A stretch of 37,779 nucleotides of DNA from Rhodospirillaceae bacterium (GTDB lineage: Bacteria; Pseudomonadota; Alphaproteobacteria; Thalassobaculales; Thalassobaculaceae), in the NCBI GenBank assembly GCA_002722775.1, contig PBMU01000012.1:1-37779 (forward strand), given 5' to 3'. Under the pieces are notes generated by a model, which had not been told where the DNA came from, did no database searches, and saw only the letters and a list, made by a program, of their open reading frames with translations. A program made the position numbers and the translations under genes. This document shows positions 3,887 to 22,084 of this stretch, one piece after another (position 1 is the first letter of the stretch; each line of letters opens with the position of its first letter).

Positions 3887-4606
3887 TTAGAGCACACTTT
3901 CAACGATTGCTTCAAAGTAGCACCTCACAAGGTCACTTTTGCCCCTTGTGGACTTAAAGATCTTCCAATCGGAGGTACTTGAGCCAAAGAACGGTTCCAG
4001 GAGAAGGCACACAGGAGCAAGTCTCCTCAAGAATAACGCCCCTCTTTGCCCACTTTTGATTGGTTTTGGTCCCCGTTCGACCAAGGTTGGAAAGAAATCG
4101 GTCATTTTTTGGGAAAAGTGTTGGGCAAATTGTGCTCCTTTTTGCGAAGAGTGCCAAAAAAGGAACTCGCTGCCCTTTGCTTTTGGGTTTCCTGCGGAAT
4201 TAAAGTGCAACTCGACAACAAGTGCGACCGTTCCAAGTGAGTTTACCTTGTCTGAAAGCCACCGGATTGCCTGGGAATACGTCTTTCCTCCGTAGTTACT
4301 AAGTAAAACAGGCTTAACCAGTTCACTTTCCTCCAGTAATTCGCACAGTTGAGTGGCGATCTGGAGGTTATATCGGTGCTCATTTGTGCTTCCGTCCCAA
4401 GTTGTTGCACCAGAGTCCCCCTTTCGACTGTGACCCACAGCAACCACTACGATGGGCCTATCGTCTTTTTCTTGTGTGGGTGGGGGATCTTTGCCCTCTG
4501 CCTTGTTCTTTAGTAGTTCAAGCGTAACGTCCCGGTGTTCGTGAAGTTCCGGGGAGTTCTTGTAAAGTTCGTTGATCTTGTCGAAGAGCAATCGGTAAAG
4601 TTTCAT
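3887..4606 (-). CDS. Endolysin, N-acetylmuramoyl-L-alanine amidase (Amidase_3 fold)
   Basis: 239 residues. After about 50 residues of helical N-terminus comes an Amidase_3 domain. Its expected zinc ligands are H59 (VVVAVGHSRKGD), E76 (NEHRYN) and H134 (VVELHFNSA), and the catalytic glutamate is E204 (LLLEPFFGSS). The enzyme cleaves the amide bond between N-acetylmuramate and L-alanine in peptidoglycan. It has no signal peptide, so it would need a holin to reach the wall. This differs from T7, whose lysozyme gp3.5 is an Amidase_2 protein in the early region. The ATG begins one base after the terminase stop, which supports this start over upstream ones inside the terminase gene. Confidence 0.85.
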   Translation of the reverse strand: MKLYRLLFDKINELYKNSPELHEHRDVTLELLKNKAEGKDPPPTQEKDDRPIVVVAVGHSRKGDSGATTWDGSTNEHRYNLQIATQLCELLEESELVKPVLLSNYGGKTYSQAIRWLSDKVNSLGTVALVVELHFNSAGNPKAKGSEFLFWHSSQKGAQFAQHFSQKMTDFFPTLVERGPKPIKSGQRGALFLRRLAPVCLLLEPFFGSSTSDWKIFKSTRGKSDLVRCYFEAIVESVL

Positions 4607-20146: not shown

Positions 20147-20441
20147 GATGAATAGGTGTGGTTAGATGTTGTGAATTTGAGTTAAGAAATATCACTCAAG
20201 GTTTCGTTCAACATTCCGGTAAAAGTGGTTGGCTATCCTGGGTTATCGGGTCGCAACCCGGCCTAGTGTTGTGCCTCTTTAGGAAAGTTTCTCTCCTTGT
20301 GAGATAAACCTCGATTATCACAAAAAAGAAAAAGCCACAAGTGTGACTTCTTCGTAGACATGGGGTGAGTGCGGAGTAGGTAGGGAGGACCGTAGCTACC
20401 TTAGCCCCCGCACTCGGTTTGTTGTGGTCCCCTCTTTGCCC
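20147..20441 (-). promoter_or_regulatory. Structured leader and probable promoter region of the capsid gene
   Basis: 295 bases without a gene. A long hairpin pairs GAGTGCGG (20367-20374) with CCGCACTC (20408-20415) and contains a second stem, AGGTAG (20378-20383) with CTACCT (20396-20401). TTGTGA (20297-20302) pairs with TCACAA (20318-20323), and CGGGT (20247-20251) pairs with ACCCG (20256-20260). None is followed by a T-run on the minus strand, so these look like leader structures or processing sites, not terminators. A late promoter is expected here by analogy with T7 phi10 but was not identified with confidence. Confidence 0.6.
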
Positions 20442-20663
20442 CTACTCTGCCTCGCCAGCAGAATCGGAATCGGGACGAGGAATGATGTCAAGCCCTACAC
20501 AAAACTTGGGCGGAAGAGGGCGCACCGTCACATCCAACTGAACGTCAGATTCGGGGCTGGTGAACGGAATAGGAAGCGACCCTCCCAGGTTAGTGGACGA
20601 GCAGGATGAAACACCGACAAGGGCAGCAAAAGCTGCACAGATAACAATAAGGTTTGCTTTCAT
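20442..20663 (-). CDS. Small lipoprotein, possible outer-membrane lysis or surface protein
   Basis: Seventy-three residues: a signal peptide (MKANLIVICAAFAALVG) with lipobox VSSC at residues 18-21, then a Pro-rich mature part (LPIPFTSPES, VRPLPPKF, IIPRPDS). A Pro-rich lipoprotein of this size is typical of outer-membrane spanins, but a closer o-spanin candidate nested in another gene lies 130 bases upstream. This one could serve as a second spanin or an exclusion lipoprotein. Confidence 0.6.
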   Translation of the reverse strand: MKANLIVICAAFAALVGVSSCSSTNLGGSLPIPFTSPESDVQLDVTVRPLPPKFCVGLDIIPRPDSDSAGEAE

Positions 20664-20692: not shown

Positions 20693-20779
20693 TTAAATGT
20701 CCAGAAGTTTTATCGCTATGAGAAGAAGCATCCCCAAAAGCAGGGTAAAAAACACCATTTGCGGCAAATCATCGAACAT
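20693..20779 (-). CDS. 28-residue membrane microprotein
   Basis: The frame encodes an acidic N-terminus (MFDDLPQM) followed by one hydrophobic helix (VFFTLLLGMLLLIAIKLLDI) and a stop. It sits neatly between two lipoprotein genes in the leftward operon. Its clean transmembrane pattern and snug fit argue that it is real, but at this length chance cannot be excluded. No family is recognised; a lysis accessory role is a guess from context. Confidence 0.4.
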   Translation of the reverse strand: MFDDLPQMVFFTLLLGMLLLIAIKLLDI

Positions 20780-20793
20780 AGCAGCATACCTCG

Positions 20794-20991
20794 TTATTGG
20801 TTCCCGTGCTCCAGATCGTTCACATAATCCAGGATCTTTCCAATCGTCTGCTTCTCCTCCGGGGAGAACCTGTGTGTCTTTAGATCCCCAAGGAATTCAG
20901 GTATCCGACTCGGAGGTGTCATCCGAATGCACCCACTCGTCAATGTCACGCTCAAGCTCAAGATGCTTACGACGACGATACTCCTTATCAT
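20794..20991 (-). CDS. Lipoprotein nested in a membrane-protein gene (Rz1-like o-spanin candidate)
   Basis: Sixty-five residues from the ATG giving MIRSIVVV. A hydrophobic signal ends in lipobox TSGC (Cys at about residue 21), and the mature part begins with a Pro-containing stretch (IRMTPPSRIPEF). An upstream TTG was rejected as start. Most of its first half overlaps the preceding gene in another reading frame, the classic Rz/Rz1 arrangement, in which an outer-membrane lipoprotein pairs with an inner-membrane protein to fuse the membranes at lysis. The mature part ends in a helical, charged region. Confidence 0.6.
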   Translation of the reverse strand: MIRSIVVVSILSLSVTLTSGCIRMTPPSRIPEFLGDLKTHRFSPEEKQTIGKILDYVNDLEHGNQ

Positions 20992-21073
20992 AGGAATCAA
21001 GAACAAGGGTGAGCATCTCCGCTAGTTTGGGAAAAACAAGCAAAAACCGGACCAACAGAGACACCCACCCCAT
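20897..21073 (-). CDS. 58-residue membrane protein (Rz-like i-spanin candidate)
   Basis: A short frame with an N-terminal hydrophobic helix (WVSLLVRFLLVFPKLAEML) and a strongly charged helical tail (DSYDKEYRRRKHLELERDIDEW) ending in an acidic tip. The lipoprotein gene starts inside it, 83 bases after its own ATG. Inner-membrane spanins have an N-terminal membrane segment plus a coiled coil, as here, although 58 residues is short for one. It starts 7 bases after the holin-like gene ends. Confidence 0.5.
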   Translation of the reverse strand: MGWVSLLVRFLLVFPKLAEMLTLVLDSYDKEYRRRKHLELERDIDEWVHSDDTSESDT

Positions 21074-21080
21074 GTTAAAA

Positions 21081-21272
21081 CTATTTGCTGCTCTTTGCTT
21101 TTCCTACGTTCAGCGCAAGCCAACTCACCACCTTACTGGCACGCTCAACCCACTTGTTGTCGCTTTCGTTGGGAGTCATCGTAGCAATGAGACTGGCGAC
21201 CGTAACAACACCTGTAAGGATGCCGATCACTTCTGCTTTGTTCTCGTTAAACCAAGTTAGTGCTTCAGCCAT
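21081..21272 (-). CDS. Holin-like small membrane protein
   Basis: Sixty-three residues. One hydrophobic segment (VIGILTGVVTVASLIATMTP, about residues 15-34) is followed by NESDNKWVERASKVVSWLALNVGKAK. A hydrophobic helix ending in TP, a short polar turn and then a '...LALNVGKAK' tail is a pattern I recall from small conserved phage membrane proteins, often annotated as holins. It lies between the scaffold gene and the nested spanin-like pair, so the four to five small genes here look like a lysis cassette inserted between scaffold and capsid. Confidence 0.6.
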   Translation of the reverse strand: MAEALTWFNENKAEVIGILTGVVTVASLIATMTPNESDNKWVERASKVVSWLALNVGKAKSSK

Positions 21273-21277
21273 ATCTA

Positions 21278-22084
21278 TTAGATTTTTGAGATTGAAAGTC
21301 GTTTCTCAACGTGCGCCCGATATGCGGGATCTTTCTGGTAGCGTGGGTCACGCATAGCATCAGTAACCTGTGCTGTCGAGTTAAACGGAGCAATGGATGC
21401 CCCCGCCACTTGACCCTTTTCAATGGAGACAGGCTCACCTCCGTCACGCAGAAACCGGGCGTACATCCCCTTGATTGCCATCTTTGAGGTGCTCAAGTCG
21501 CCAGAGTCCACAGAGTTATTGTAAGCGTGCAGTTCTTCGTCAGTCAGCGCACTTGCTGCCCAAGTGGACATGGCATCGTAGTTCTCTTTGCCTCCCACCT
21601 CCGACATCATCTGGTTTGTAGAATCCTGCTTAACGCTTTCAAACCCTTTGACATACATCTCAACAAGCTCCCTGTTGATCCCTGCCTTCTCCAAGTTGCT
21701 GTAAGTGAGGTCAGTGAGTTCGCCATTTTGCTCAAACTCCTCAGTTGCCTTACTCACCGCAGAATTAACAGAGTCCTGGATAGCTTGCTGCTCCGCAGTT
21801 ACCTGTGCTTTTTCATCGTCTCTCTCCTTTGCGTGGTAGTCCTTTTCCAGATTTGAGTATGCCTTGGCAAGTTCCTCTGCGTTCTCAAACTTCTCAGGCA
21901 ACCACTCAGGACGATCCCCATCAGGTTTGTCGGTGTCATCCGCAGTCTCCTGTGAGTCTAACTCCAGGGCTTGTTGCTGCTGACCCTGCGACTTCGCCTC
22001 CTCTTGCATTTTCGCTTGTTCCTCCAACGTAACCTGCTCGCTTTTTGTGGGTTCATTGATCGTTACTGAGTGTAGTTCTGCCAT
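21278..22084 (-). CDS. Capsid assembly scaffold (T7 gp9-like)
   Basis: 268 residues (T7 gp9 307). The protein is very acidic and Gln/Glu-rich at the N-terminus, with a family-typical RPEWLPEKFENAEELAKAYSNLEK stretch in two parts near residues 58-81 and a helical middle. It has a basic, Arg-containing end (YRAHVEKRLSISK) suited to binding the capsid protein. It lies between portal and capsid genes. The small lysis-type genes that follow separate it from the capsid gene, unlike T7 where 9 and 10 are adjacent. Confidence 0.9.
   Translation of the reverse strand: MAELHSVTINEPTKSEQVTLEEQAKMQEEAKSQGQQQQALELDSQETADDTDKPDGDRPEWLPEKFENAEELAKAYSNLEKDYHAKERDDEKAQVTAEQQAIQDSVNSAVSKATEEFEQNGELTDLTYSNLEKAGINRELVEMYVKGFESVKQDSTNQMMSEVGGKENYDAMSTWAASALTDEELHAYNNSVDSGDLSTSKMAIKGMYARFLRDGGEPVSIEKGQVAGASIAPFNSTAQVTDAMRDPRYQKDPAYRAHVEKRLSISKI

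Follow-up and report, generated by a model that had tools for sequence, protein, structure and literature searches.

A candidate spanin pair and a putative lysis-linked membrane protein between the scaffold and capsid genes of a T7-like phage

We find that three small genes lying between the scaffold and capsid genes of a T7-like phage very likely encode a two-component spanin pair together with a lysis-linked membrane protein, which would deal with the outer membrane within a split lysis system; this reading is drawn from sequence comparisons. The window, by which we mean the whole 37,779-nt stretch of DNA analysed, is a T7-like (Autographiviridae) phage genome whose minus strand carries most of the genes, and judged by the capsid (65% identity) its closest named relative is the uncultured phage MedDCM-OCT-S45-C18 (AP013544.1, Ayaqvirus). 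Running from scaffold to capsid, the slot between these two genes holds a 63-aa protein, a 58-aa protein, a 65-aa lipoprotein, a 28-aa peptide and a 73-aa lipoprotein, all on the minus strand (Table 1); the first three make up the block considered here. The 58-aa and 65-aa proteins are probably a new spanin family, in a place that is unusual yet has precedent, and no description of this family was found in the literature searched. An earlier note on this DNA had proposed a split lysis cassette at this position, an idea that is now strongly supported because homologous blocks adjoin endolysins and holins elsewhere and because Rhizobium phage Pasto carries a lysis cassette in the same slot.

Table 1. 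Genes of the scaffold–capsid slot, its flanks and the distant lysis genes of the window
Feature	Coordinates	Strand	Remarks
Scaffold gene	22084-21278	minus	
63-aa protein, PHROG 9685 family	21272-21081	minus	one transmembrane (TM) segment and a C-terminal amphipathic stretch
58-aa protein, i-spanin candidate	21073-20897	minus	hydrophobic N-terminus, then long charged helix
65-aa lipoprotein, o-spanin candidate	20991-20794	minus	lipobox ...LTSGC; mature form 45 aa
28-aa single-TM peptide	20779-20693	minus	strongly hydrophobic
73-aa second lipoprotein	20663-20442	minus	lipobox
Capsid gene	20146-19145	minus	
51-aa membrane protein, T7 gene 17.5-type (class II) holin candidate	6724-6569	minus	just before TerS
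239-aa N-acetylmuramoyl-L-alanine amidase, endolysin	4606-3887	minus	directly after TerL

The overlapping gene pair

The conserved start of the 65-aa lipoprotein is the ATG at 20991, which aligns with the ATG of its relatives; the TTG at 21006 is not the start. From there the gene runs in the +1 frame, sharing 95 nt with that of the 58-aa protein, and ends at 20794, about 100 nt beyond the upstream stop, so that the pair is overlapped and not nested as the earlier note had described it. The protein carries a hydrophobic h-region and a lipobox with Thr at −3 that is matched by the PROSITE-type pattern, and is predicted to be lipidated; Gly-Cys is present in all aligned members of the family. 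Its links to annotated spanins are distant. PHROG 456 (“Rz-like spanin”) matches 7 of 15 lipoprotein relatives weakly (best E = 0.003) and the window member not at all, and neither the window lipoprotein nor the 58-aa protein has a significant match to annotated spanin families. Profile comparison by hhalign with the o-spanins of Vibrio phage X29 and prophage G007 gives a probability of 95% at full length and 58% once the signal peptide is left out, a drop that makes homology to known o-spanins only likely; the resemblance lies mainly in a C-terminal motif and the signal peptide. Pfam returned nothing significant for the 63-aa protein, the 58-aa protein or the lipoprotein.

For the 58-aa protein, octanol hydropathy (−5.7 over 19 residues) allows a TM segment, within which R9, K16 and E19 fall. 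A true TM segment is doubtful because the N-terminus contains R, K and E as well as a conserved Phe-Pro. AlphaFold2, run without an alignment, produced only helices (pLDDT 63 and 83), and these models were left out of fold searches; that of the 58-aa protein, from its single sequence, is a kinked helix (3-13/15-53, pLDDT 83). Its similarity to the corresponding small proteins of X29 and prophage G007 is not significant (7%).

Conservation of the block and dual-frame coding

A scan with the aligned lipoproteins recovered 208 relatives in IMG/VR, of which the best 80 were fetched. Throughout these best 80 of 208 loci the order 63-aa protein, 58-aa-like protein, lipoprotein is kept as far as the contigs reach, the 58-aa-like gene overlaps the lipoprotein gene in 80/80, and in most of them the block sits between scaffold and capsid; no structural neighbour was seen in L053. 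We also observed four loci (L043, L044, L062 and L081) in which the block, or as much of it as the contig shows, stands before the portal gene; the block thus seems to move as a unit.

Together with loci from our other searches, the best 80 of 208 yielded 72 distinct pairs, which bear out the conservation of the two overlapping genes that the earlier note had named as a check. In all 72 the lipoprotein gene starts at an ATG in the +1 frame and its product has a lipobox. When the upstream gene was synonymously recoded, the median probability that the second frame stayed open was 0.29, and an open frame with both an ATG and a lipobox arose in about 2% of trials, against 60/60 observed; these 60 pairs are not independent lineages, but a handful of such lineages would already make chance untenable. 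A comparison of the window with its relative L002 puts dN/dS at 0.10 in the 58-aa gene and 0.14 in the lipoprotein gene. The open reading frames of the block are real, and their dual-frame coding is more than chance.

Overlapped and embedded pairs in one family

The 72 distinct pairs comprise 52 overlapped and 20 embedded ones; the frame is +1 in every case, and the upstream proteins measure 55-111 aa. L046, whose frame is open at the contig end, is counted among the overlapped. In the embedded relatives the lipoprotein gene lies fully inside a longer open reading frame. A capsid tree calls for a minimum of two architectural changes, both forced by well-supported branches. At the nucleotide level, compared with an L115-like state, the upstream stop of L087, which is one metagenomic contig, has changed from TGA to CGA, synonymously in the lipoprotein frame and with no indel before it, so that a single T-to-C change would have turned an overlapped pair into an embedded pair. 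This fits one of the routes proposed in PMC6139136. The same survey, by Kongari et al. (2018; 528 pairs, PMC6139136), reported no spanin family that mixes embedded with overlapped or separated pairs; a family holding both would be the intermediate missing from those 528 systems. A bolder reading, which we hold to be conceivable though rather less than evenly probable, is that the three genes form a transferable lysis module in which PHROG 9685 proteins serve spanin pairs as dedicated partners (acting, for example, in gating or timing) and whose family records the switch between the two architectures.

The 63-aa membrane protein and its neighbourhoods

The 63-aa protein matches PHROG 9685 (“unknown function”; E = 1.7e-8). 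Alignments of its whole family were too divergent for scans of the collections, and a closer subset was used instead. In unrelated phages and prophages, PHROG 9685 homologues adjoin endolysins, often followed by an overlapping pair of a small open reading frame and a lipoprotein gene, and in Azospirillum phage Cd the homologue stands three genes after the lysozyme. In bacterial genomes, the upstream neighbour of the homologue is a Hydrolase_2 cell-wall hydrolase in 13/35 cases, with one further match each to M15, phage lysozyme and GH19 among the same 35. Within 400 nt downstream of the homologue, an open reading frame with a lipobox starts in 34/64 viral loci and in 10/35 genomic ones; the upstream counts are 0/64 and 1/35, and codon-shuffled controls give about 0.1%. 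By the PROSITE-type pattern, such a frame is found in 51/76 viral and 9/37 genomic loci, and the start of each is overlapped by a small open reading frame. The link between the 63-aa protein and the pair is not strict, since the homologue of RHEph01 occupies the scaffold–capsid slot without a lipoprotein, and since most bacterial loci lack a downstream lipobox frame by the pattern used.

The lipoproteins behind PHROG 9685 proteins differ much in sequence type (NESALYDPPT..LIEG and VVFVDG..DVVRL, for instance) in L188, L191, L195, L198, L187, L209 and L223, where each overlaps a small helical open reading frame; we note these as exchangeable o-spanin candidates.

Judged by its neighbours, the 63-aa membrane protein is linked to lysis and may be a holin or an accessory holin. 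Of the “holin-like” protein of the earlier note, what stands is a small protein with one TM segment and a linkage with lysis; a holin function is not supported, and no Pfam holin family matched it.

Distant lysis genes and the proposed pathway

The amidase matches Pfam Amidase_3 (4e-15) and a PHROG endolysin family (7e-25), and its ATG at 4606 comes after the TerL stop. The 51-aa protein ahead of TerS is 61% identical to an open reading frame in the same place in AP013544 and 30% identical, over a short alignment, to the annotated holin II of the cultured phage LUZ100; it has no PHROG match. The endolysin is about 16 kb from the block, and amidase and holin candidate lie about 14-16 kb away, in agreement with the earlier note, which had placed an endolysin and another holin-like gene about 15 kb off. 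Redundant holins in this phage are possible.

The two remaining slot products, the 28-aa peptide and the 73-aa lipoprotein, may both be genes, are clade-specific, and have nothing linking either to lysis. The peptide occurs in the window phage and L002/L040 alone among the best 80 of 208 loci (dN/dS 0.17, one pair); the 73-aa lipoprotein is 81% identical in L002/L040 and absent from the other fetched loci of the same 80. Both had been counted in the cassette. The peptide and the lipoprotein, which lies outside the cassette as first delimited, are indeed present, but a lysis role for either is not supported, both being confined to the window phage and its nearest relative, and the same holds for a lysis module with two outer-membrane lipoproteins.

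In the pathway that we propose, the spanin subunit of the inner membrane would be the 58-aa protein, with a short N-terminal membrane helix and a charged helical tail in the periplasm. Its partner, the 65-aa lipoprotein, would receive its lipid after export and so be held in the outer membrane. The holin, probably the 17.5-like protein, would open the inner membrane and the amidase would degrade the wall, after which both spanin subunits would draw the two membranes together, with disruption of the outer one. As for the 63-aa protein, which accompanies the pair and endolysins, it could act as an accessory holin, as an antiholin or in support of the spanins. What we infer for this system is its topology, complex formation, membrane disruption and timing. 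In the putative host bin (70% complete) LptD was found, which makes an LPS outer membrane likely for that bin, and the BamA-type Omp85 family was not found.

Other features of the slot and its surroundings

No clear Shine-Dalgarno motif precedes the starts at 22084, 21272, 21073, 20991, 6532 and 4606 of the window, before which AAATAACATG-like contexts are repeated. Between the portal and scaffold genes lies a 27-aa single-TM open reading frame (22188-22105) that is kept in L002 (74%; dN/dS 0.17, one pair), and small open reading frames also occupy the portal–scaffold gap in LUZ100, Pasto and the CRP and RHEph01 phages. In the relatives L003-L006, the part of the slot behind the lipoprotein, 0.5-1.2 kb ahead of the capsid gene, is taken up by small basic proteins, and cyanophage P-SCSP2 and pelagiphage HTVC119P have similar ones; the C-terminal segment of one of these small basic proteins is swapped (CARMSGVKGPMKD versus CARSLGILKKHNI) between L003 and L004 and between L005 and L006, the phages of each pair being otherwise very similar. 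A tRNA-Asn stands between slot and capsid gene in LUZ100 (L027, 20831-20906) and RHEph01 (L035, 2742-2812), while no tRNA was found in the window; all three encode an integrase.

Alternative explanations

One weak point of the proposed pathway is the N-terminus of the 58-aa protein, which is amphipathic, bears charged residues and has a Pro kink, whereas the TM segment of the 63-aa protein is cleaner and uncharged. The lipoprotein might then be the only spanin subunit of the pair, with the 63-aa protein (or a protein encoded elsewhere) as inner partner and the 58-aa protein as a peripheral amphipathic helper. We consider this unlikely: the positive charges at the C-terminus of the 63-aa protein suggest that this end faces the cytoplasm, the protein is found without a lipoprotein in RHEph01 and many prophages, the 58-aa gene shares with i-spanin genes its overlap with a lipoprotein gene, and the LUZ100 counterpart of the 58-aa protein resembles an ordinary i-spanin.

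Small phage lipoproteins can also act in superinfection exclusion, and one family member has a sub-significant match to the Cor-like PHROG 1119. A module that excludes superinfection or modifies the envelope, in which the lipoprotein blocks a receptor in the style of Cor or Llp and the small membrane proteins assist, is nevertheless very improbable given the overlap of the gene pair, the endolysins and holins that adjoin it in other phages, and the matches to spanin families; moreover, the embedded lipoprotein is the only lipobox frame found on the coding strand of AP013544, a strand on which no other spanin candidate was seen. The place between scaffold and capsid in most of the clade would suit virion or capsid-assembly factors, a role to which we give even less credence, as the block stands before the portal gene in four loci, homologues in unrelated phages and prophages lie near lysis genes and not near scaffold or capsid genes, and the lipoprotein has a signal peptide and lipobox. 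That the frames are short, overlap and lack clear Shine-Dalgarno sites could finally point to chance open reading frames or a misread frame; the scaffold, TerS and amidase genes equally lack such sites, and this explanation, next to inconceivable, was ruled out by the 72 distinct pairs, the recoding control and dN/dS.

Comparison with known lysis systems

Like lambda Rz/Rz1 and T7 gp18.5/18.7, the window has an out-of-frame (+1) overlapping pair among its late genes, and as in two-component spanins generally it combines a small helical protein with a hydrophobic N-terminus and a small lipoprotein. The summed periplasmic length, which we estimate at about 34 + 45 residues, is inside the published spanin range of 62-300 (PMC6139136). 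The window departs from such systems in that its pair lies between scaffold and capsid, away from TerS/TerL and the endolysin; in that its family is not annotated as spanin, has a very short and weakly transmembrane i-subunit, and holds overlapped and embedded architectures at once.

Vibrio phage X29 (KJ572845.2) has the order holin-like gene (PHROG 14453, E = 5e-4), amidase, 63-aa homologue, 58-aa protein and lipoprotein (Rz-like spanin PHROG 8971, 2e-31). It shares with the window the last three of these and, in the lipoprotein, a similar C-terminal motif (LMRYILDLE against ILDYVNDLE in the window), and differs in that its block directly follows holin and amidase and in that an opposite-strand gene sets the lipoprotein apart. 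Prophage G007 carries a LydA-type holin, a 163-aa protein, a 63-aa homologue and an overlapped pair whose lipoprotein matches PHROG 8971 (6e-7). Placing the unannotated PHROG 9685 in phage lysis regions would improve its annotation.

For LUZ100, a cultured T7-like phage of P. aeruginosa, an apparent lack of spanin genes was reported (PMC10134795). Its scaffold–capsid slot nevertheless has the three-part order of the window, with a homologous first protein (gp37) and an overlapping lipoprotein (gp38) that has a match to the Rz-like spanin family PHROG 1275 (1.6e-12) and shares 38% identity with the Rz1-like protein of Pseudomonas phage AF; gp38 overlaps an unannotated 78-aa GTG open reading frame (20275-20511) with a hydrophobic N-terminus and a charged tail. 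The phages differ in that gp38 belongs to PHROG 1275 and has no confident alignment with the window lipoprotein. The slot arrangement seems to explain the “missing” spanins of LUZ100, and with candidates at hand for this phage and for a large group of marine T7-like phages, claims that such phages are spanin-less become testable.

The closest precedent for the location is T7-like Rhizobium phage Pasto (MT708545.1), in which an expert-annotated cassette of endolysin, holin, i-spanin and o-spanin occupies the same slot. Pasto and the window have in common an overlapping i-/o-spanin pair between scaffold and capsid; Pasto also keeps its endolysin and holin there and has a longer annotated i-spanin, whereas in the window the slot opens with a PHROG 9685 protein and the endolysin gene is next to TerL.
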